A stretch of 64,000 bases of DNA. Origin: an uncultured Porphyromonadaceae bacterium (GTDB lineage Bacteria; Bacteroidota; Bacteroidia; Bacteroidales; Muribaculaceae). Below are positions 4,744 through 31,419 of this stretch, one piece after another. The stretch lies in assembly GCA_947178215.1 (NCBI GenBank), contig CAMWXJ010000004.1, positions 1 to 64,000 on the forward strand, given 5' to 3'. Under the pieces are notes generated by a model. That model had not been told where the DNA came from. It worked only from the letters and a program-made list of their open reading frames with translations, and ran no database searches. Position 1 is the stretch's first letter. Every line of letters starts with the position of its first letter. The translations under genes and the position numbers were made by a program.

Positions 4744-4796
4744 CAGTCAGGCCTGCGACTGTCAGGCCTGCGACTGTCAGCGCCTGCGACTGTCAG
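4740..4796. repeat. 15-base tandem repeat and hairpin at the mutL/GH3 convergence
   Basis: Three copies of GCCTGCGACTGTCAG lie at 4751-4765, 4766-4780 and 4782-4796, with one extra C between the second and third. The inverted form CTGACAGTC at 4740-4748 can pair with GACTGTCAG at 4757-4765 to make a 9-base stem. The repeat begins at the mutL stop and runs into the last codon and stop of the GH3 gene on the other strand. It may serve as a bidirectional terminator, though no T-run is present. Confidence 0.8.
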
Positions 4797-7654
4797 CGCC
4801 TCAGCCCGGGAACGCTCACTTCCGAAATAGATGCTTCGCCGCGGGTAATGACTATGCGCAGGTCGCTCGCCGTGGTCCCTTTGAGACGATAGGTCTCGAT
4901 AGTGTTGTCGGGCTTGCCCACATTGCCTTTATAGACGGTAAGGAACTGACCGCCGCCACCCGAAAGTTGTATCTCAAACGAGGCGTCGGGCGACGCGGCG
5001 CTCCATGCTATGCCCGCTTCCGACGGAGCCGAACCGTTTTCGAGAGTATAGGTAATATAGTCGCCGGCCTTGCCGCTCCACGCGCTCTCCCCTTTTCCGT
5101 CGAGCGTGAGTGCCGCAGTCTCGTTGCCGGCACTCGCTACCACCGGGGCTGCCTTGGAGGTGGATGTCACGGTGTTATCGCCATACTTCACAACCTCAAA
5201 CTCACCTTTAAGACGGATGTCGGTCGACGATGCGCCCACCATGACCTTGAAATCGCCCGGCTCGACAACGCGGTGATTGTCGGCGTCGATGAGGCTGAGG
5301 TCGCGTGGCTCAATTGTGAAGCTTATCTCGCGCGACTCTCCGGGCGCGAGGCTTATGCGGTCGAAGCCTACCAGATTTTTTTCATAGGTGGTGACGGAAC
5401 TTACCACGTCGCGCACATAGAGCTGCACAACCTCGTCGCCGGCGCGGCTGCCTGTGTTAGTCACGGTGCAGCTCACGGTCACAGGCTGGTGTTCGGTCAC
5501 CTTTTCAGGCGATATTTTCAGGTTGGAATACTCGAATGTGGTGTAGCTCAGGCCATAGCCAAACGGATAAAGCGGACCGTTGACACGCGACATATTGCCT
5601 TTCGGGCCGGGGACAGTGCCGCCGTCGACCTGTGAGTAAGCCTTTGCCGGGAAATTGAACGGTATCTGGCCCACGCTCTTGGGGAACGTCACGGTGAGCT
5701 TTCCGCCGGGATTGTAGTCGCCGAATATCGCTTCGGCAACAGCCGTGCCACCCTGCGAGCCGGGATACCACGCCTCGATTATAGCCGGGATGTTGCGGTC
5801 GGCCCAGTTGATGGAAAGCGGACGTCCGTTGATAAGCACGAGCACCACCGGCTTACCGGTGGCCGCCACGGCTTTGAGCAGGTCGAGCTGACGGCCAGGG
5901 AGGTCGAGGCTGCTGCGCGACTTGTTCTCGCCGCATGTGCGGTTGCTGCCGCCGAGTACCACCACGGCGACATCGCTCTCACGCGCCACGGCCACGGCCT
6001 CGTCAATGCCGGCCTGCTCTTCGGGCGTGATGTCGAAGTCGATTATCTCCGACTCGGGCCAGTTGGGGTCGACAAGCTCGCACCCTTTCACATACACCAC
6101 CTCAGCGCCGGGCGCGCTAAGGTTTTTAAGGCCGTCGTAGACCGTGGTGACATCCACGGCGAGCGGTCCGTAATGTGTCAGCGCATACGCACCCTCGTTG
6201 GCATTGGGGCCGATTACGGCTATGCGCTTCACGGCGTCTCGGTCGAGCGGAAGCAGATTGCCGGCATTACGGAGCAGCACGAGGCTCTCACGCGAGGCGC
6301 GCAGGGCCACCGCCTGATTCTCCGCCGAGTTTACCTCGACGTCGGGCTGCCGGAGGTCGGTCGTATAAGGTGAGTCGAAGAGTCCGACAATGAACTTGAC
6401 ACGGAGTATGTCGCGCACGCGGTCGTCAATCACGCTCATAGGTATCGCGCCTTTCTCTATCAGGCGTCGGAGAGGCTCTACATAGCTGTCGGGCGAGCGG
6501 AACGTGCAGCGCACGTTAAGGCCCGCCATGACGCTTTGAAGCACGGCCTCCTCCATATCCTTTGCGGTAGAGTGCTTGCCGTAGAGATACTCCACGGCGT
6601 CGCTGTCCGACACGAAATAGCCCTTGAAGCCCCACTGCTTGCGCATACGTTCCGTGAGCCAGTAATAGCTGCTCTGGATTGGCTGCGCGTCGTAATCGTT
6701 GTAGGAGCTCATGGCGCCGAGCAGCCCAGCCTCGCCCACAACGCGCTCCCAGGGATATACATGTATCATCTCCACTTCGCGCGGCGACATCTGCGGATCA
6801 TTTCTGGCCATGCCCTCGCGGCCGCCCTTGTTGTTGGAGTAGGCTATGAAATGCTTGGCGGTCGACGCCACTTGGTTTTCAGTCTGCAAGCCCTTTGTCA
6901 TCTGTATGCCAAGTTCGGCCACGAGATAGGGGCTCTCGCCGTATACCTCCTCATAGCGCCCCCAGCGCTGGTCACGTCCCACGTCGAGAATCGGGGCGTA
7001 TATGTTGGTGTAGCCGAGCAGACGGCCTTCGCGGCCGGTGATATATCCCACCTTGCGGATAAGGTCGCGGTCCCAGGTGTGGCCGAGGCCGAGCTGTGTC
7101 GGGAAGTTGGTGGCGATATAACTCTCCACACCGCGTATGCCTTCGTTGGTAAAGTCGGTAGGGATTCCGAGGCGCGTTTCCTCGACAAAGAAACGCTGCA
7201 CCTCGTTGAGGGCCCAGGCGTGGCGCGATGCCGGCCACACATACTGATTGTCGGAGGGCGGCAGTCCCCACTGCTGGAATCCGTTGAGATGTTCGTCAAT
7301 AGCTCCTATGCCGTCTTTCCACAGCTTGTTTTTCCACTCTGGGGTGGGGAGGTCGTCGGCGAGCACGCGCTTATAGCCGTAGAGCGTCACCATCTGACAG
7401 GTCTTTTCGTCGACTGTCATCTGCGAGAGCAGATTCTCTATGCGGTCGTCGATCTTAGCCTCGGGGTCCTCGTATATGTCTTTGCGTCCGTTTTTATTGA
7501 AGTCAATCCATCCTTTGTGGTACATCTCCGTTTTCGCCGGCTTGTAGACGGCAGGGATGCGTACCTCGGTGTCCTTGTCGGAGGTCGCGCTTGCGGGCAA
7601 CAGGCCGGCAAGGGCGAGACAGATGCAAGTAGCTGCACTCTTTCCTGATTTCAT
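4793..7654 (-). CDS. secreted GH3 family beta-glycosidase
   Basis: This 953-residue enzyme is a glycoside hydrolase family 3 member, likely a periplasmic beta-glucosidase or beta-xylosidase. I chose the start MKSGK because it gives a signal peptide of about 22 residues; the longer frame reaches into the divergent promoter region. A calcium-loop-like segment DFNKNGRKDIYED lies at 51-63. The nucleophile is probably D350 in FVSDSDAV. The second GH3 domain follows (KRIAVIGPNA, VVVLGGSNRTCGENKSRS), then a fibronectin III-like domain (about 720-820). The last 120 residues resemble a galactose-binding, F5/8-type beta sandwich. It has no neighbouring SusCD, so the natural substrate is open. It is divergent from the kinase-RapZ gene. 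Confidence 0.9.
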   Translation of the reverse strand: MKSGKSAATCICLALAGLLPASATSDKDTEVRIPAVYKPAKTEMYHKGWIDFNKNGRKDIYEDPEAKIDDRIENLLSQMTVDEKTCQMVTLYGYKRVLADDLPTPEWKNKLWKDGIGAIDEHLNGFQQWGLPPSDNQYVWPASRHAWALNEVQRFFVEETRLGIPTDFTNEGIRGVESYIATNFPTQLGLGHTWDRDLIRKVGYITGREGRLLGYTNIYAPILDVGRDQRWGRYEEVYGESPYLVAELGIQMTKGLQTENQVASTAKHFIAYSNNKGGREGMARNDPQMSPREVEMIHVYPWERVVGEAGLLGAMSSYNDYDAQPIQSSYYWLTERMRKQWGFKGYFVSDSDAVEYLYGKHSTAKDMEEAVLQSVMAGLNVRCTFRSPDSYVEPLRRLIEKGAIPMSVIDDRVRDILRVKFIVGLFDSPYTTDLRQPDVEVNSAENQAVALRASRESLVLLRNAGNLLPLDRDAVKRIAVIGPNANEGAYALTHYGPLAVDVTTVYDGLKNLSAPGAEVVYVKGCELVDPNWPESEIIDFDITPEEQAGIDEAVAVARESDVAVVVLGGSNRTCGENKSRSSLDLPGRQLDLLKAVAATGKPVVLVLINGRPLSINWADRNIPAIIEAWYPGSQGGTAVAEAIFGDYNPGGKLTVTFPKSVGQIPFNFPAKAYSQVDGGTVPGPKGNMSRVNGPLYPFGYGLSYTTFEYSNLKISPEKVTEHQPVTVSCTVTNTGSRAGDEVVQLYVRDVVSSVTTYEKNLVGFDRISLAPGESREISFTIEPRDLSLIDADNHRVVEPGDFKVMVGASSTDIRLKGEFEVVKYGDNTVTSTSKAAPVVASAGNETAALTLDGKGESAWSGKAGDYITYTLENGSAPSEAGIAWSAASPDASFEIQLSGGGGQFLTVYKGNVGKPDNTIETYRLKGTTASDLRIVITRGEASISEVSVPGLRR

Positions 7655-7692
7655 GGCTATGATATGATGTGATAGAATGGTATGGTTGATTG

Positions 7693-7700
7693 CAAAGGTA
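7693..7700 (-). promoter_or_regulatory. -7 element (TACCTTTG) for the GH3 gene
   Basis: On the minus strand TACCTTTG matches TAnnTTTG and lies 38 bases before the GH3 start codon, a normal leader length. No convincing -33 box was seen at the usual spacing. Confidence 0.4.
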
Positions 7701-7753
7701 CTAATAATTTCCCAAAGCGGCGACGGGATGGCGGGAGTGTCGGCGGAAATAGG

Positions 7754-7761
7754 TATATTTG
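7754..7761 (+). promoter_or_regulatory. -7 element (TATATTTG) just before the kinase-RapZ gene
   Basis: TATATTTG fits TAnnTTTG and ends 5 bases before the ATG at 7767. This supports 7767 over the upstream in-frame start at 7677, and suggests a leaderless or very short-leader transcript. Confidence 0.42.
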
Positions 7762-7766
7762 CCGAC

Positions 7767-9221
7767 ATGAACCATATCGACACACTCACGTCTCTTGCCG
7801 CCGAAGCGGGACTCGGCACACCGCGGGCCATCACGCCCCTTGCCGCGGCGGCATCGTCACGCCGCTATTTCCGACTCGATTTCGGCCCCGGCATCCCGTC
7901 GCTGATAGGAGCTGTCGGCGATTCCCCGGCCGAAAACCGGGCCTTTGCCGAGATAGCCCGCTGCATGGAAGATGCCGGTGTAGCTGCGCCGAGGATGAAA
8001 GCCATGAGCACCGATGGAAAGGCCTACATAGTGACTGACCTCGGCGACCGTTCCATGATGGAGGCGGTGGCGGCAGCGGCCAAGTCGGGCGACTGGCACG
8101 GTTCGGAGGGCTTCGAGGCCCTGCACCGCTGCATGCAGTCATTGCCACGCCTACAATACGGCGTGGCTGCGAGGTTCAATGCGTCAAAATGCTACCCTCG
8201 CCCGGCCATGGACAGGCGTTCGGTGCTCTGGGACCTCAACCACTTTAAATACTGCTTCCTCAAAGCCGCCGGTATGGAGATTGACGAAGAAAATCTCGAA
8301 AACGACTTCAACCGCCTGGCCGACATGATTGAGGCGGAGTCGGCGACCCGCTTCCATGCCTTTATACACCGCGATTGCCAGAGCCGCAACGTGATGCTGC
8401 TCCCCGACGGTACTCCGGCGTGGATTGACTTCCAGGGTGGACGCATGGGGCCGGTAGCCTACGATGTAGCCTCAATGGTGTGGCATGCCCGCGCCGCCAT
8501 TCCGGCCGGTGTGAGGCATGAGCTGCTTGCCGTGTACGTCAAGTCGCTATCCAAGGTGCTCGACTGCGAAGTGAGTGTCGAAGAATTTGCCGAAGCGTTG
8601 CAGCCAGTGTTGCTGCTGCGCTTCCTCCAAGTACTCGGCACTTACGGCCTGCGCGGCATCACCGAGGGTAAATCGGCTTTCATAGAGCCGATAGCGGCGC
8701 TTGTCGACGAGCTGTCCCTGCTGCTTCCCTGGATTGACCGCAGCGGTATGCCGGCGATAGCCGCCACAATACGTCGCCTGCCGTCGCTCGAAGCTGTAAG
8801 AGGCTCGCGCGAGAAGCGCGACAGACTGGTTGTCACCGTTATGAGCTTTTCCTATAAGCGCGGACTTCCGCGCGACTGGTCGGGCAACGGCGGCGGATTC
8901 ATCTTCGACTGCCGCTACCCCAACAATCCGGGCCGCTATCCTGAATACCGAAGCCTCACGGGACGCGACAAGCCGGTAATTGATTTCATCCGCGCCGACG
9001 GCGAAATGGTGACTCTCGCCGAGAGGGCCGTGGAGACGGTGCTTCCGGCGGTGCGCCGTTACCGCGACCGCGGCTTCACTCATCTTAGTGTGGCTTTCGG
9101 ATGCACGGGCGGTCAGCACCGCTCAGTCTTCGGAGCCGAGACCATGGCCCGCGCGATTGCAGCCGAAGGGGTCAAAGTACACCTCATACACCGCGAACAA
9201 GGTATCGACATCATGTTATGA
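7767..9221 (+). CDS. AmgK-like sugar kinase fused to a RapZ C-terminal domain
   Basis: This 484-residue protein joins two domains. Residues 1 to about 330 are an aminoglycoside-phosphotransferase-fold kinase. The catalytic loop is HRDCQSRNVMLL (about 200-211), and the Mg-binding segment IDFQGG (near 219) stands in for DFG. This matches anomeric amino-sugar kinases such as AmgK, which phosphorylate MurNAc/GlcNAc at C1. Residues about 354-484 match the C-terminal half of RapZ: FSYKRGLP, FDCRYPNNPGRYPEYRSLTG, AFGCTGGQHRSV. In E. coli that half binds glucosamine-6-phosphate and the RNase E adapter partners. The RapZ P-loop half is absent, replaced by the kinase. The stop overlaps the next start (ATGA), so it is coupled to the MurU-like gene. 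The combined function is inference. Confidence 0.85.
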   Translation: MNHIDTLTSLAAEAGLGTPRAITPLAAAASSRRYFRLDFGPGIPSLIGAVGDSPAENRAFAEIARCMEDAGVAAPRMKAMSTDGKAYIVTDLGDRSMMEAVAAAAKSGDWHGSEGFEALHRCMQSLPRLQYGVAARFNASKCYPRPAMDRRSVLWDLNHFKYCFLKAAGMEIDEENLENDFNRLADMIEAESATRFHAFIHRDCQSRNVMLLPDGTPAWIDFQGGRMGPVAYDVASMVWHARAAIPAGVRHELLAVYVKSLSKVLDCEVSVEEFAEALQPVLLLRFLQVLGTYGLRGITEGKSAFIEPIAALVDELSLLLPWIDRSGMPAIAATIRRLPSLEAVRGSREKRDRLVVTVMSFSYKRGLPRDWSGNGGGFIFDCRYPNNPGRYPEYRSLTGRDKPVIDFIRADGEMVTLAERAVETVLPAVRRYRDRGFTHLSVAFGCTGGQHRSVFGAETMARAIAAEGVKVHLIHREQGIDIML

Positions 9222-9973
9222 TTAAAGGAATGATATTTGCGGCCGGACTCGGCACACGTCTCAGGCCGCTAACCGACACAATGCCGAAAGCGATGATTGA
9301 AGTCGGCCGACGCCCCATGCTCCGACGCGTTATCGACAGCATGGCTGCTGCCGGCATTGCCGAGATAGTAGTCAACGTGCATCACTTCGCCGGCATGGTA
9401 GCCGACTACATAGAGCGACACCGCGACGAGATTCAGGCCCGGATAATCATATCCGACGAGAGCGACCTGCTGCTCGACACCGGCGGCGGACTGCTCCGCG
9501 CGGCCCCGCTGCTCGAAGACTCCGACGCCGTGGTGCTCCACAACGCCGACATTCTGTGCGACGCCGACCTCGCCCTGCTCACTGAGATGCACCTGTTTAC
9601 AGGAGCCGACGCCACGCTGATGACCGACCCGCTGCGCGAGTCGTCGCGACGGCTGCTTTTCGACACCGATTTCCGACTCCATGGGCGCATCAACCTAAAA
9701 TCTGGCGCAATCTCACCGACCGGTCTGAATGCCGAAGGGCTGCACCGCGCGTCATTCCAGGGTATTCACGTGGTGTCGCCGAGGGTATTTCCCGCACTCG
9801 CCGAATACGCCGGCGCAACAGCTCGCGAGGTGTTCTCGATTACAGATTTCTACTGCGACACAGCCGCCACACTCGACATACGCGGATATGTGGCCGAACG
9901 CCCCTCGACATGGCTCGACGTGGGCCGACCCGAATCGCTCGCCGAAGCAAGGCGCCTTTATGCCGAGACTTAA
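9218..9973 (+). CDS. MurU-like sugar-1-phosphate nucleotidyltransferase
   Basis: This 251-residue protein is a nucleotidyltransferase of the GT-A/Rossmann NTP-transferase family. The signature FAAGLGTRLRPLTDTMPKAM lies at residues 6-25, and the metal/nucleotide loop is LHNADILCD (about 108-116). With the preceding AmgK-like kinase it probably makes UDP-MurNAc or a related nucleotide sugar, as in the AmgK-MurU cell-wall recycling route described in Pseudomonas. It starts within the stop of that gene (ATGA), a sign of translational coupling. A mannose-1-phosphate or glucose-1-phosphate transferase is a possible alternative. Its stop overlaps the tail of the convergent EamA pseudogene. Confidence 0.78.
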   Translation: MIKGMIFAAGLGTRLRPLTDTMPKAMIEVGRRPMLRRVIDSMAAAGIAEIVVNVHHFAGMVADYIERHRDEIQARIIISDESDLLLDTGGGLLRAAPLLEDSDAVVLHNADILCDADLALLTEMHLFTGADATLMTDPLRESSRRLLFDTDFRLHGRINLKSGAISPTGLNAEGLHRASFQGIHVVSPRVFPALAEYAGATAREVFSITDFYCDTAATLDIRGYVAERPSTWLDVGRPESLAEARRLYAET

Positions 9974-15050: not shown

Positions 15051-16496
15051 ATGAAACACTGCCATTCATTATCAATACTTCCGGGCATTGCGGCAATAGC
15101 GGCTGTCGTGACGTCGTGCGCGGCAGGCAGCCACTCCAACGGCGGCGAGGTAACCGGCATCGGCGCCACATCATGGACCGAGCCCACCCCATATGGCATG
15201 GTGCTCGTCGACCGCGGCTCGATAAAGGCGGGTCCGCAGGAAGCCGACTCGCTGTGGGGGCTCGAACCCGACGCACGAGGCATATCGGTCGATGCTTTCT
15301 GGATGGACGAGACCGAAATCACCAATTCAAAATACAAGCAGTTCGTGTTCTGGGTGCGCGACTCGATTATCCGCGAGCGTCTCGCCGACCCGGCCTACGG
15401 CGGCAACGAGGATTTCAAGATTGAAGAAGATCGCGAGGGTAACCCCGTGACTCCACACCTCAACTGGAACAAACAGATTCCCTGGCGAAACCCCAACGAA
15501 GACGAGCAACGCGCTATCGAGAGCCTCTACCGCACCAACCCAATTACCGGCGCGAGAGAGCTGGACCACACTCAGCTCAACTACCGCTATGAGGTGTACA
15601 ACCACACAGAGGCCGCACGTCGCCGCAACCGTCTCGACCCGCGCCGCCGCGAGTACAACACCGACAAGCCGGTGCCCACCGAGCTCCCCGTCATATCCAA
15701 AGACACCGCATATTTCAACGACGAGGGCGAGATAGTGCGCGAGACCATTTCGCGCGCACTCACCGGCGACTACGACTTTGTCAATACCTACATCGTCAAT
15801 GTCTATCCCGACACCACGGCCTGGATTAACGACTTCGAGAACGCATACAACGAACCTTATGTGCGCATGTACTTCAACCACGGCGGCTATAACGAATACC
15901 CGGTAGTAGGAGTGAGCTGGGAGCAGGCCAACGCTTTCGCCAACTGGCGCACCGATTATCTCCGGCGGTCGATAGGACGCGAAGGGGCGTTTATCGAGCC
16001 TTACCGGCTGCCCACGGAAGCGGAATGGGAATATGCCGCCCGAGCCGGCGTGTCGGAAAACAAATACCCCTGGGAGGGCGACTTGCCGCTCACAGAAGAC
16101 AAGGGCTGCTTCTACGCCAACTTCAAGCCACAGGAGGGTAACTATGTGCAGGATGGCCACATCATTACCTCGCGGGTAGGCACATACGCTCCCAACGACT
16201 TCGGCCTCTACGACATGGCCGGCAACGTGAGCGAGTGGACTTCCACCGCCTACACCGAAAGCGTGAGCAAGCTCGCCGGCGACCTCAACCCCGAATACCG
16301 CTACGACGCCGCCGTAGAGGACCCTTACAGAATGAAGCGCAAGATTGTGCGCGGAGGCTCATGGAAAGACGTCGCTCACAACGTGCGCTCCGACCTCCGC
16401 ATGTGGGAATACCAGAATGAGCAGCGCTCGTATATCGGCTTCCGGTGCGTGCGCACACAGATAGGTTTCGCCAAGGGCAACAAGAAAGGCAAGTAA
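15051..16496 (+). CDS. gldK: type IX secretion lipoprotein GldK/PorK
   Basis: A 481-residue lipoprotein with Cys23 in the lipobox (AVVTSCAAG). Most of it is a formylglycine-generating-enzyme/sulfatase-modifying-factor-like domain: GMVLVDRGS, DETEITNSKYKQFV, YPVVGVSWEQANAFANWRT, RLPTEAEWEYAAR, NDFGLYDMAGNVSEW, and GFRCVR at the end. In T9SS this fold is structural, and PorK with PorN forms the ring under the outer membrane. An insertion (about 125-240) rich in charged residues is typical of GldK. It is the third gene of the porT-porP-gldKLMN cluster and is followed by gldL after 27 bases. Confidence 0.93.
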   Translation: MKHCHSLSILPGIAAIAAVVTSCAAGSHSNGGEVTGIGATSWTEPTPYGMVLVDRGSIKAGPQEADSLWGLEPDARGISVDAFWMDETEITNSKYKQFVFWVRDSIIRERLADPAYGGNEDFKIEEDREGNPVTPHLNWNKQIPWRNPNEDEQRAIESLYRTNPITGARELDHTQLNYRYEVYNHTEAARRRNRLDPRRREYNTDKPVPTELPVISKDTAYFNDEGEIVRETISRALTGDYDFVNTYIVNVYPDTTAWINDFENAYNEPYVRMYFNHGGYNEYPVVGVSWEQANAFANWRTDYLRRSIGREGAFIEPYRLPTEAEWEYAARAGVSENKYPWEGDLPLTEDKGCFYANFKPQEGNYVQDGHIITSRVGTYAPNDFGLYDMAGNVSEWTSTAYTESVSKLAGDLNPEYRYDAAVEDPYRMKRKIVRGGSWKDVAHNVRSDLRMWEYQNEQRSYIGFRCVRTQIGFAKGNKKGK

Positions 16497-16523
16497 TCTC
16501 TCTTCATCCAGTTCATCATAGCA

Positions 16524-17438
16524 ATGAAAAAAATCCGCAAATACAAGAATATCATCGAGCGCTTCCTCTCGGGCGAGAGCGGCCAGCGATTTTTTAACTT
16601 CGCTTACTCGATAGGCGCGGCCATTGTGATATGGGGCGCGCTCTTCAAGATTCTGCACCTGCCGGGAGGCTCCACGCTTCTATGTATCGGCATGGGTACA
16701 GAAGTGGTGATGTTTATACTCACCGCATTCGACCGCCCCTCGCGCGACTACCGCTGGGAAGAGGTGTTTCCCGCTCTTGCCGACAAGCCCGACAACGCAG
16801 AAGAGAGCGAACACCCCGGAGCTAATAATACTGCCGCAGCTACCGTTCACGCGACCACTGCCGCACAGGGAGCTTACAGGCATGTAGCAATGCCTCAGCT
16901 TACGGGCGAACCGGCTGCCGACGTTGCCGCCGTGACCGGAAACTACGTGGAGCGCATGAACGCTATCGCCGAACAGATGAGTCACCTCCTGGAATCTACC
17001 GAAGAGCTTAACCGCGCTTCGGAGACACTGCTTCAAGCCTATCGCGCCATCACCGACAACTCCGACTCTGTGGGAGCTTCGTCGACAGGCTATGTAGAGC
17101 AGATGCAGGCACTCAATCGCAACATCCAGGGGCTCAACACCATCTACGAGATTCAGCTCAAAAGCGTAAGCTCGCAACTCGATGCTATCGACCGTGTGAA
17201 CCGCGGCATCAAGGATATACGCGACATGTACGAGCGCTCCGCAAGCCATAGCTCACGCTATGCCGAGGAGACAGAGAAAATGACGCTCCACATACAGCAG
17301 CTCAATCATCTCTATGAACGCATGATTCAGGCGATGACCATCAACATGCATCATCCCGGGGCACATGCGGCCGCCTCGCCGGCTCCCCATGCGGCCCGAC
17401 AGCACGAAACGCCCGCACCTCAACCCGCAACCGTATAA
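16524..17438 (+). CDS. gldL: type IX secretion motor protein GldL/PorL
   Basis: A 304-residue inner-membrane protein. Two membrane helices lie at about 25-45 and 52-71 (FNFAYSIGAAIVIWGALFKI, LLCIGMGTEVVMFILTAF), with the conserved FKILHLPGG between them. GldL and GldM form the proton-driven motor of T9SS. A long cytoplasmic coiled-coil region follows, with TGNYVERMNAIAEQMSHLLE and IQGLNTIYEIQL. The tail is Ala/Pro/His-rich. It is followed by gldM after only 5 bases. The Glu in the second helix (TEVVM) is a candidate for the motor's essential acidic residue. Confidence 0.94.
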   Translation: MKKIRKYKNIIERFLSGESGQRFFNFAYSIGAAIVIWGALFKILHLPGGSTLLCIGMGTEVVMFILTAFDRPSRDYRWEEVFPALADKPDNAEESEHPGANNTAAATVHATTAAQGAYRHVAMPQLTGEPAADVAAVTGNYVERMNAIAEQMSHLLESTEELNRASETLLQAYRAITDNSDSVGASSTGYVEQMQALNRNIQGLNTIYEIQLKSVSSQLDAIDRVNRGIKDIRDMYERSASHSSRYAEETEKMTLHIQQLNHLYERMIQAMTINMHHPGAHAAASPAPHAARQHETPAPQPATV

Positions 17439-17443
17439 TCAGC

Positions 17444-19003
17444 ATGGCACAGTCATCAGGTCGACTCTCGCCGCGTCAGAAGATGATAAATCTTATGTAT
17501 ATCGTTCTGACTGCGATGCTGGCGCTCAACGTATCAAGCGACGTGCTCGACGGCTTCACACAGGTCGAGGACGGACTTTCGCGCACCAATGCCACCGTGG
17601 CGCAGCGCAACGACGCGATTCTCAGCCGCCTACAAGACTTTGCCGATACCAATCCCGGCAAGGGCACCCCTTGGTTGGTCAAGGCCCGCGAGGTTACCGA
17701 GGCCACAGGGCGCATCAACAGTCTTGTCGACTCATTCAAGCTCGCCATTGTGCGTCAGGCTGACGGCGAGGGCGCGGCTATCGACAACATCGAGAACCGC
17801 GAGGACCTGGAAGCCGCATCGGTGGTGATGCTCAACCCCACCTCCAACCAAGGCCGCAAGCTGCGCGAAGAAGTCGACGGCTACCGCACCTTTATCGAAA
17901 GCATGATAACCGACAGCACGAAACGTGCGGCAGTAGCCAAGGCTCTATCCACCGACAAGGTCTATGACCGCACATCGGGCGTCAACAGGCTATGGGAAGA
18001 GGCCCGGTTTGAAAACCAACCGGTGGTGGCCGCAATAACGCTTCTGACAAAGCTCCAAAACGACATACGCTTCGCCGAGGGCGAGGCACTCACCACCCTG
18101 CTCAACAATGTCGACGCCGGCGATGTGCGAGTCAACGAGCTCAACGCTTTCGTTATACCCGACAGCCGTATCGTGATGCGCGGCGAAAAGTATCGCGCCA
18201 ACATAGTGCTTGCCGCAGTCGACACCACGGCGCGCCCCACAATCAGCATAGGCGGCCGCGAGCTGCCACAGAGCGCGGCGGGAGTGTATGAGTTCGTGCC
18301 GCAGACCACCGGCTCGTTTGACTACTCCGGCACCCTCGACGTGACACACGGCGACGGCACGGTAACGTCGCATCCTTTCAGCTCGTCGTACGTGGTCATG
18401 GAGCCGTCGGCTACCGTCAGCGCCACAATGATGAACGTGCTATATGCCGGCATCAACAATCCCCTGAGCATTTCTGTGCCTGGCGTGCCGTCGGGCAATG
18501 TCAGTGCCACGATGAGCAACGGCCGCCTCACACGCAACGGCGACACATGGACAGCCGTGCCCGACAAGGCCGGCAAGGAAGCCGTAATCAACGTAGCGGC
18601 AAGCCTCTCGGGCGGCACTCCGCAGCAGGTCGCTTCCATGACTTTCCGCGTACGCCGTCTGCCCGACCCCATCGCCTATATCGCCATAGGCGACGAACGC
18701 TACAAAGGAGGGCGTATGCTGCCAAAAACTCAGCTCATGGGTGCCAAAGGGCTTGGCGCTGCTATTGACGACGGCATGCTCGACATCGATTTCCGCGTAG
18801 TGAGTTTCGAGACGGTGTTCTACGACTCAATGGGCAACGTAATAGCCGAACTCTCCGACGGCGCCGACTTCTCAAAGCGCCAGCTCGCGCAGTTCCGCCG
18901 CCTCAGCCGCGGCAAACGCTTCTTCATATCACGCATCAGAACCATAGGCCCCGACGGTGCCGAACGCACCCTCCCCTCGGCCCTGGAAGTCATCGTAGGC
19001 TGA
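17444..19003 (+). CDS. gldM: type IX secretion protein GldM/PorM
   Basis: A 519-residue protein anchored by one N-terminal helix (about 14-36, MINLMYIVLTAMLALNVSSD). It then extends through the periplasm as four domains, starting with the helical LDGFTQVEDGLSRTNATV region and followed by beta domains. GldM passes torque from the GldL motor to the PorK-PorN ring. The conserved family start SPRQKMINLMYIVLTAMLALN is clear. It lies 5 bases after gldL and 34 before gldN. Length matches the family. Confidence 0.95.
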   Translation: MAQSSGRLSPRQKMINLMYIVLTAMLALNVSSDVLDGFTQVEDGLSRTNATVAQRNDAILSRLQDFADTNPGKGTPWLVKAREVTEATGRINSLVDSFKLAIVRQADGEGAAIDNIENREDLEAASVVMLNPTSNQGRKLREEVDGYRTFIESMITDSTKRAAVAKALSTDKVYDRTSGVNRLWEEARFENQPVVAAITLLTKLQNDIRFAEGEALTTLLNNVDAGDVRVNELNAFVIPDSRIVMRGEKYRANIVLAAVDTTARPTISIGGRELPQSAAGVYEFVPQTTGSFDYSGTLDVTHGDGTVTSHPFSSSYVVMEPSATVSATMMNVLYAGINNPLSISVPGVPSGNVSATMSNGRLTRNGDTWTAVPDKAGKEAVINVAASLSGGTPQQVASMTFRVRRLPDPIAYIAIGDERYKGGRMLPKTQLMGAKGLGAAIDDGMLDIDFRVVSFETVFYDSMGNVIAELSDGADFSKRQLAQFRRLSRGKRFFISRIRTIGPDGAERTLPSALEVIVG

Positions 19004-27387: not shown

Positions 27388-29529
<2,142 letters not shown>

Positions 29530-29556
29530 CTTGGTGATGTGATATTGTGGGTGAGG

Positions 29557-31419
29557 TTACTTTAACAGACGGGCGTTGAAGTCGCGCAGTGTATCGAGCA
29601 CGTTGACGCGCACATGTATAAAGTCGTTGATGCCTGCGGCGCGGAGGTCGTCGGCGCATGCGGGAGCACCGGCTACCACAAACTCGGCGCGTCCGTCGAG
29701 ATACTTGTAGGCCTCGGGGGCGAGGGTGGCGTATTCGTCGTCGGAGGAGCAGAGCACCACCACGTCGACGCCTTTCTCGAGAGCGGCATCGATGCCGGCC
29801 TCAACGGTGTCAAAGCCGAGATTGTCGATAATCTCATAGCCGGCGCAGCCGAAGAAGTTGGTCGAGAACTGTGCGCGGGCAAGACGCATGGCAAGGTTGC
29901 CAATGGTGAGCATGAACACCTTGGGGCGCTTGGCGGCTGCCTCGGTGGCGAGTCGGAGAGCCTCAAAGTCGCTTGCGGCGCGGCTTGTGGGCAGACCCTT
30001 TGCCTCGCCCTCTTCTTCGGCGGCGTGGCCGCAGCAGCAGGCGTTGGCGCAAGCAATGTTCTCAATCTTCTGCGAGGCGGTCTCGGTGATGTTGGGATAC
30101 TGGTTGGAGCCGAGCAGGATTTCCTTGCGGCGTGCAACGTCGGTGTGACGCTTGGCCGAGGTCTCGCGGATGGCACCCTGGATGCTGTTGTCGTTGAGGC
30201 AGGCCTCGAATCCGCCCTTTTCCTCCACTTCGAGGAAAAGCTTCCACGCTTCCTTGGCAATCGACACGGTGAGGGTCTCCACATAGTAGCTGCCGCCGGC
30301 GGGGTCGACAACCTTGTCGAGGTGGCTCTCCTCTTTGAGGAGGAGCTGCTGGTTGCGGGCGATGCGCTCCGAGAAATCGTCGGGACGCTTGTAGGGGGTA
30401 TCGAAAGGCGTTACAGTGATTGAGTCGACGCCGGCGAGGGCGGCACTCATGCACTCGGTCTGCGAGCGGAGCAGGTTGACGTATGCGTCGTAGATGGTCT
30501 GGTTGAAGCGCGAAGTGGTGGCGTGAACCACCATCTTGGCGGCGCAGAGACACTCGGGATTGTAGGCCTTTACGATTTCGGCCCAGAGCATGCGGCCGGC
30601 GCGGAATTTGGCAAGCTCCATGAAGTAGTTGGAGGAGATGCCCATATTGAACTTGATACGGCAACCCACTTCGGTAGCGGTGAGGCCGGCGTCGGTGAGG
30701 GCGGTGAGCCACTGCGAACCCCATGCCAGAGCATAGCCGAGCTCCTGATAGATATAGGCGCCGGCATTGGAGAGCATGTCGGAATCGACGGAGAGCACTT
30801 TGAGCCCCTTGACGGGAGCGGCAGCGGCGATGAGAGCCTTGGCGGTCTCGACTATGGCAGCGCCGTCAACCTCGTCGCCGTGACGCAGGGAGCGACGGAA
30901 AGGATTGTAGTCCACCGAGCCGCGGAAGCTGTCGGCGGTATTCTTTTCCTGAACGTAAGCCACGAGAGCTTCGGTAAGGGCAAGAGCATTCTTGGGGCAA
31001 GAGGTGAGATTAATCTCCACCTTGGCGGTATCGATGCCGTCGAGAAGTGTGGCAACAGTCTCTTTGGAGGGTTCGGCCACCTTGAAGCCGAGCGAGTTGA
31101 TGCCCTTTCCAAGCACCTCGCGGGCCTTGGCGTTGGCCTCGGCGGGGGTGTCGGCTATAATCTCCTGGCGGGTGAGCCACTCATTGTCGGTACGAGTGCC
31201 GCGCACGTAGGGATATTCGCCGGGGTTGGAGTCGAGAGTCTTGAGGCCCTCGATGTCTTCGGCGCGATACATGGGCTGCACGTTGAAGCCCTCGTTGGTG
31301 CGCCACACCAGTTTCTTGTCGAAAGGTGCGCCTTTCAGGTCAGCTTCCACCTTGGCCTTCCACTCTGCTGTGGAGACCGGAGGAAACTGGTCAAACAAAA
31401 GTTCTTTTTTTTCTGCCAT
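29557..31419 (-). CDS. mutA: methylmalonyl-CoA mutase small subunit
   Basis: A 620-residue partner of mutB. The barrel half includes RAGRMLWAEIVKAYNPE and the C-terminal Rossmann half (VFMLTIGNLAMRLARAQFSTNFFG) has lost the DxHxxG cobalamin motif, as expected for this subunit. An odd element is a Cys/His cluster, CANACCCGH, near residues 455-465 in the linker between halves, next to an acidic stretch. I do not know whether other family members carry it. The gene has its own promoter in the divergent region next to the Lrp-type regulator, and is followed by mutB after 27 bases. Confidence 0.95.
   Translation of the reverse strand: MAEKKELLFDQFPPVSTAEWKAKVEADLKGAPFDKKLVWRTNEGFNVQPMYRAEDIEGLKTLDSNPGEYPYVRGTRTDNEWLTRQEIIADTPAEANAKAREVLGKGINSLGFKVAEPSKETVATLLDGIDTAKVEINLTSCPKNALALTEALVAYVQEKNTADSFRGSVDYNPFRRSLRHGDEVDGAAIVETAKALIAAAAPVKGLKVLSVDSDMLSNAGAYIYQELGYALAWGSQWLTALTDAGLTATEVGCRIKFNMGISSNYFMELAKFRAGRMLWAEIVKAYNPECLCAAKMVVHATTSRFNQTIYDAYVNLLRSQTECMSAALAGVDSITVTPFDTPYKRPDDFSERIARNQQLLLKEESHLDKVVDPAGGSYYVETLTVSIAKEAWKLFLEVEEKGGFEACLNDNSIQGAIRETSAKRHTDVARRKEILLGSNQYPNITETASQKIENIACANACCCGHAAEEEGEAKGLPTSRAASDFEALRLATEAAAKRPKVFMLTIGNLAMRLARAQFSTNFFGCAGYEIIDNLGFDTVEAGIDAALEKGVDVVVLCSSDDEYATLAPEAYKYLDGRAEFVVAGAPACADDLRAAGINDFIHVRVNVLDTLRDFNARLLK

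Follow-up and report, generated by a model that had tools for sequence, protein, structure and literature searches.

What does the C-terminal half of RapZ do at the end of a sugar kinase? This question is raised by a gene in a 64,000-nucleotide stretch of DNA (the window; positions 1 to 64,000 of contig CAMWXJ010000004.1, assembly GCA_947178215.1) from an uncultured Porphyromonadaceae bacterium of the Muribaculaceae lineage. At 7767..9221 on the forward strand (stop codon 9219-9221), a single uninterrupted frame encodes a protein of 484 amino acids in which an APH/AmgK-type kinase is joined to the RapZ C-terminal domain (RapZ_C), and a gene for a MurU-like nucleotidyltransferase follows. This two-domain protein is genuine, widely distributed and wrongly named, and it represents a variant of the AmgK-MurU route. 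We suggest that it may represent a Bacteroidota form of AmgK-MurU amino-sugar salvage, in which RapZ_C would be a third, nearly constant component acting as a phosphatase before the kinase; this is a possible reading, whose probability we place somewhat short of even.

The fusion protein and its neighbour

Both domains are recognised above their cut-offs in the one frame, as an initial annotation made from the DNA letters had proposed: Pfam APH matches residues 22-257 (50.2 bits, cut-off 23.2, E 3.9e-13) and the Pfam RapZ C-terminal domain, PF22740, matches residues 355-478 at 8829..9200 (111.1 bits, cut-off 27, E 5e-32). For the kinase domain (7830..8693) the top-scoring NCBIfam kinase model is AmgK, which extends over residues 25-309, and we call the domain AmgK-like rather than AmgK because the equivalog cut-offs of the AmgK models are not reached (44.2 bits against 550 and 34.6 against 500). 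Sequence matches in the PDB are to 3csv, an APH-type protein, for the N-terminal part (E 2.1e-14) and to E. coli RapZ for the C-terminal part. For the whole protein, AlphaFold2 gave from three sequences a model of modest quality (predicted local distance difference test, pLDDT, 65; predicted template modelling score, pTM, 0.57), whose top Foldseek match is 3csv, with RapZ (5o5o) placed 45th among the 50 shown; RapZ is the best match of a model restricted to residues 350-484 (pLDDT 78.5, pTM 0.80). The kinase domain carries HRDCQSRN (residues 201-208; 8367..8390), which we take to be the catalytic-loop motif of APH-type kinases, and IDFQGG (residues 220-225; 8424..8441), presumably the metal/ATP-binding motif. 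Over the 65 rows aligned in the kinase columns, R202, D203, R207, N208, D221 and Q223 are identical throughout, so that the HRD...N motif and the Asp of IDFQGG are constant with the exception of the His. The window protein has RDC where 63 of the 65 rows have RDF.

The protein is not RapZ itself. Its match to the NCBIfam RapZ model scores 99.3 bits against a cut-off of 244 and covers only profile positions 153-277 of 278, and the P-loop N-terminal domain (PF03668) was not found in the genome of origin, in agreement with the initial annotation, which had noted the missing half. Among 296 Bacteroidota genomes (the phylum sample; a second set of 198 Bacteroidales genomes is the order sample), PF03668 is above cut-off in none, with two weak fragments below it; among 14 control genomes both RapZ domains were detected in the same six.

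The distinction matters for named relatives. At least 80% of the fusion protein is matched in four records of a plasmid collection, from Phocaeicola massiliensis and a Prevotella (both unannotated under the match), Parabacteroides distasonis and Bacteroides finegoldii. The proteins of the last two, WP_005858754.1 and WP_237923178.1 respectively, are the same fusion with about 44% identity to the window protein (L100:4959-6389 and L101:4959-6389); both are annotated as 'RNase adapter RapZ' and are followed by a gene for a 'nucleotidyltransferase family protein'. They begin with the kinase and continue into RapZ_C, and differ from the window fusion in name only; their label is contradicted by their domains, as the half that defines RapZ is missing. 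No description of the fusion appears in the titles, opening lines of abstracts and passages searched, which is weak evidence of novelty given that subscription papers mostly lay outside that search.

The MurU-like gene (9218..9973, forward strand; 251 amino acids) begins at an ATGA (9218-9221) in which its ATG overlaps the TGA of the fusion gene, and the earlier description of it as starting inside the stop of the fusion is right to within a base. Its product matches PF00483 with 77.8 bits, and its top two NCBIfam models are both MurU, with scores of 114.9 and 109.6 bits that fall below the equivalog cut-offs of 370 and 250, respectively. Upstream of the fusion gene an in-frame ATG at 7677 would give an alternative protein of 514 amino acids, but 7767 is the likelier start because similarity begins at about residue 16-25 in most of the relatives listed from the order sample. 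A long divergent frame on the opposite strand (4793-7834), which looks like a beta-glucosidase of glycoside hydrolase family 3, reaches in its longest reading into the beginning of the fusion gene and has a signal-peptide-like start further inside.

Occurrence and gene order in Bacteroidota

The fusion protein is matched in 167 of the 198 Bacteroidales genomes, and RapZ_C is present in 160, all of them among the 167; the seven others match without RapZ_C, presumably through the kinase half. Frames with RapZ_C are about 465-565 amino acids long for most of the matches listed, and seven are shorter than 200. A chance or assembly fusion is ruled out by the number of matching genomes and by the spanning of both domains in most matches listed. 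The architecture is carried by most of the sampled Bacteroidales and is not peculiar to the source genome. A scan of genome contigs with the fusion protein alone gave two loci only, and viral contigs gave none.

In the phylum sample RapZ_C occurs in 36 genomes, and the surroundings of the gene were retrieved for 35 of them, the window being the 36th. The search for the same fusion elsewhere, as the initial annotation had advised, finds it in 27 of the 36; in seven more the domains are separate neighbours in the order kinase-RapZ_C-murU, and in two RapZ_C stands alone. The latter two genomes carry a kinase match elsewhere, with 34% and 28% identity (the lower in G180), and the neighbours of their unlinked RapZ_C genes offer no clear cell-wall context. 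Downstream of one stand-alone gene (G271, L060:5776-7050, reverse strand) comes, on the same strand, an MFS transporter gene without an NCBIfam match. A murU-like gene comes next in 28 of the 36, and the remaining eight have a homologue elsewhere, the weakest being that of G180 (33% identity). Gene order and co-occurrence thus bear out the functional tie between the fusion and MurU that had been proposed. In a tree of 64 rows, made by a quick method that leaves 27 of its 61 inner branches with weak support and gives the window row a long end branch (1.72), the split state needs three changes, which are forced by its starred branches. The link between kinase and RapZ_C has therefore been broken or made more than once with the gene partnership retained. 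The window protein is fast-evolving, its end branch comparing with a median of 0.45.

With the kinase half as query, 100 of the 296 Bacteroidota are found: the 36 with RapZ_C, 63 genomes of one family (f18) and G009. In the f18 genomes the kinase stands alone and is only distantly similar to the query (20-33% identity), and neither RapZ_C nor AnmK is detected. In G009 (L137:1438-3149) the kinase and murU genes overlap directly with nothing between them, and neither RapZ_C nor AnmK is detected there.

The low equivalog scores raise the question of whether the module acts on another sugar or amino sugar, such as N-acetylglucosamine (GlcNAc) or a sugar of a surface glycan, with a resemblance to AmgK and MurU at the level of the superfamily only. 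The best scores of 44.2 of 550 bits for AmgK and 114.9 of 370 for MurU would fit this, as would the genome of origin, which has its own MurA (G000:C17:36169-37479) and in which AnmK was not found. However, the best-scoring kinase and nucleotidyltransferase models are precisely AmgK and MurU, and the murU-like gene is a neighbour in most genomes with RapZ_C. Tannerella forsythia, of the same order and, like P. distasonis, a member of the Tannerellaceae, has been described with AmgK and MurU (PMC7670621), and E. coli expressing the T. forsythia pair, of which AmgK may or may not be this fusion, served as positive control for the labelling of N-acetylmuramic acid (MurNAc; PMC13041923). We therefore regard a different sugar as unlikely, but as deserving consideration.

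The RapZ_C pocket and its candidate roles

Conservation of RapZ_C was assessed over 67 rows that represent 66 genes (L038 and L070 contribute an identical gene), of which 29 are best-scoring matches from the order sample, with a bias toward near relatives. Unbroken conservation extends furthest in the phosphate-binding loop: in CTGGQHRS (residues 446-453; 9102..9125) all positions except 450, namely C446, T447, G448, G449, H451, R452 and S453, are identical in every row, and GCTGGQHR spans residues 445-452. Also invariant are G375, G376, G377, D381, R383, N387 and P388, and D401 is kept in 65 rows. The pocket of E. coli RapZ is formed by H190, T248, G249, H252 and R253 (PMC5737377); the equivalents of the last four are kept, and that of H190 is Gly in all 67 Bacteroidota rows, where it forms part of NPG (residues 387-389; 8925..8933), while full-length RapZ of Paracoccus and Azospirillum retains NPH. 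Relative to E. coli RapZ there is in addition a five-residue insertion within the glycine-rich stretch WSGNGGG, part of the insertion lying in GNGGG (residues 373-377; 8883..8897).

RNA binding is unlikely as the main role of the domain, although the contacts that are kept leave it some chance. Seven RNA-contacting basic residues have been named for E. coli RapZ (PMC9841335), and the window protein keeps three (K170, R184 and R196), with K194, R211, R238 and K251 replaced; the further contacts R223, R266, R268 and K270 (PMC5737377) are V, A, E and V, and the basic tail of the E. coli protein is absent, the C-terminus being HREQGIDIML. On these residue comparisons the RapZ_C of the fusion belongs to a subfamily of its own, distinct from RapZ.

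The initial annotation had read RapZ_C as a sensor, and such a domain would bind glucosamine-6-phosphate (GlcN6P) or a relative without turnover and switch the fused kinase on or off, adjusting salvage to the supply made de novo. That the C-terminal domain of E. coli RapZ alone binds GlcN6P, with a dissociation constant of 10 nM, and responds to it is confirmed (PMC7073468), and the four conserved pocket residues and the steady partnership of RapZ_C with the kinase, whether in one chain or in two, agree with sensing. On the other hand, the loss of the His together with the new glycine-rich insertion means that the ligand may differ, simple binding needs no invariant Cys, and RapZ_C is a separate gene at three places in the tree, which would be less readily expected of an allosteric domain able to act only within the fusion. 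The idea of a GlcN6P sensor thus finds support in part, and we give the sensor a chance distinctly below even, as a tentative but serious alternative.

A catalytic role is suggested by the loop itself, which has the form C-x5-R-S and resembles the signature of Cys phosphatases. We take C-x-x-G-x-x-R-[S/T] between a strand and a helix to be the signature of cysteine-dependent phosphatases, and this pattern is present at C446-S453; in the RapZ_C model a strand ends at C446 and a helix begins inside the loop. The invariance of the loop extends to the 11 rows that come from genomes of the phylum sample in which AnmK is not found. The group working on E. coli RapZ has noted homology between the pocket of its C-terminal domain and this phosphatase loop, and has raised the hydrolysis of GlcN6P by RapZ as a possibility (PMC7199280); the C247S exchange, which affects the Cys neighbouring the pocket residues, abolished RapZ activity, unexpectedly to the authors, a result that points to a catalytic -SH (PMC9841335). 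B. subtilis YvcJ 'exhibits NTPase and phosphatase activities' (PMC7525490), in line with a catalytic role. Because the Cys is invariant within a C-x5-R-S loop, catalysis is at least as likely as sensing, and a phosphatase role of RapZ_C appears equally or somewhat more likely than a sensor role.

A third possibility, that RapZ_C is a dimerisation or docking module without ligand chemistry of its own and holds the kinase and MurU together for channelling, seems to us very unlikely. It could draw on E. coli RapZ, whose C-terminal domain dimerises alone and loses self-interaction in D182A (PMC5737377, PMC7073468), since D381, the equivalent of D182, is among the invariant residues, and on the tight overlap of the fusion gene with murU. 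However, the longest run of invariant residues is the phosphate-binding loop and not a surface, and the kinase and murU genes of G009 overlap directly with no RapZ_C.

AnmK and the proposed salvage route

AnmK is the usual source of MurNAc-6-phosphate, and if RapZ_C links this compound to AmgK, genomes with both the kinase and AnmK would be expected to have RapZ_C. Among kinase-positive genomes of the phylum sample, RapZ_C is present in 25 of 25 with AnmK versus 11 of 75 without it; 63 of the latter are those of f18, and upon their exclusion the figure is 11 of 12. In the order sample, where kinase-positive denotes a genome with a match to the whole fusion protein, the corresponding numbers are 125 of 127 and 35 of 40 (Fisher p 0.009), and for the pooled samples excluding f18 Fisher p is 0.003. 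Across the whole order sample of 198 genomes, 125 of the 160 with RapZ_C have AnmK, versus 10 of the 38 without RapZ_C, an association that a broad loss of recycling genes from small genomes may account for. The test leans toward the phosphatase reading but is not decisive. The 35 kinase-positive Bacteroidales that keep RapZ_C without AnmK would also suit a sensor, which would still be useful there. Since RapZ_C persists in most kinase-positive genomes lacking AnmK, the phosphatase reading must allow another source of 6-phosphosugar, possibly a MurNAc 6-kinase like MurK of T. forsythia (PMC5790795).

We propose the following route. The C446-x5-R452 pocket of RapZ_C would bind an amino sugar phosphorylated at C6, most probably MurNAc-6-phosphate, and the 6-phosphate would be removed via C446, where D401 might serve as general acid. 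The sugar so freed would be handed to the kinase half and phosphorylated at C1. The co-made MurU-like enzyme would then add uridine monophosphate (UMP), converting the sugar-1-phosphate into a uridine diphosphate (UDP)-sugar that feeds peptidoglycan synthesis past MurA; since MurA is present in the genome of origin, the route would be a bypass rather than the sole supply. RapZ_C would thereby take over the job of MupP, the phosphatase of the unrelated HAD family that makes MurNAc for AmgK in Pseudomonas (PMC5371407). The fusion, the gene order, the co-occurrence, the conservation of both sets of motifs and the absence of the RapZ N-terminal domain are directly observed; we infer the kinase substrate, the phosphatase activity, the identity of its substrate and the hand-over between domains.

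Several observations weigh against this route. AnmK was not found in the genome of origin, which is one of the 35 of 160 RapZ_C-positive Bacteroidales without detected AnmK; in the phylum sample AnmK is as frequent among genomes with RapZ_C (25 of 36) as among all genomes (207 of 296); two genomes (G304 and G471) combine a kinase match and AnmK with no RapZ_C; and the p-values given above ignore kinship, with no phylogenetic correction. T. forsythia is said to have AmgK and no AnmK (PMC7670621), and G009 shows that kinase and murU manage without RapZ_C. Concerning the chemistry, no profile link of RapZ_C to phosphatases was obtained at E values up to 10, and in the Foldseek top 50 the phosphatase matches Sac1, DUSP26 and PRL-3 are non-significant (E 0.03-0.08) among many P-loop NTPases, with other folds scoring equally. 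The phosphatase activity of B. subtilis YvcJ is not assigned to its C-terminal domain in the passage cited (PMC7525490).

Compared with known systems, the fusion shares with AmgK, the anomeric MurNAc/GlcNAc kinase of Pseudomonas and Caulobacter, the APH-type fold and motifs and a position beside or overlapping a MurU-like gene, but it scores far below the equivalog cut-offs and has RapZ_C added, while in Pseudomonas the preceding phosphatase is a separate enzyme. With E. coli RapZ and B. subtilis YvcJ it has in common the C-terminal domain with its GCTGGxHRS loop, RapZ being the best structural match of the domain model; it differs from them in the absent P-loop domain, the Gly in place of His190, the five-residue insertion and the replacement of most RNA contacts. 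MupP resembles RapZ_C in the proposed reaction and place in the route, and is set apart from it, by description, as an HAD protein (PMC5371407). These comparisons lead us to suggest, tentatively and with rather less than even confidence, that the RapZ_C of Bacteroidota is a phosphatase that uses cysteine to act on amino-sugar 6-phosphates, that the fusion is a one-chain phosphate relocator (off C6, on to C1) replacing MupP, and that the C-terminal domain of E. coli RapZ may descend from an amino-sugar salvage enzyme later recruited for RNA control.

Elsewhere in the window, 15051-19003 (forward strand) encodes an FGE-sulfatase-domain protein, presumably GldK-like, with GldL and GldM, all belonging to a type IX secretion/gliding gene cluster, and two genes of the methylmalonyl-CoA mutase family lie side by side at 27388-31419 (reverse strand).

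A protein of most sampled Bacteroidales is thus filed, in at least two annotated examples, under a name that its domains contradict. The C-terminal domain of RapZ, puzzling in its chemistry in E. coli and B. subtilis, is here tied to one metabolic step with few candidate substrates, and its role is therefore directly testable. If RapZ_C is indeed a phosphatase, it would supply the step that Bacteroidota lack between 6-phosphorylated MurNAc and AmgK, and would hint at how a regulator that binds RNA evolved from an enzyme.

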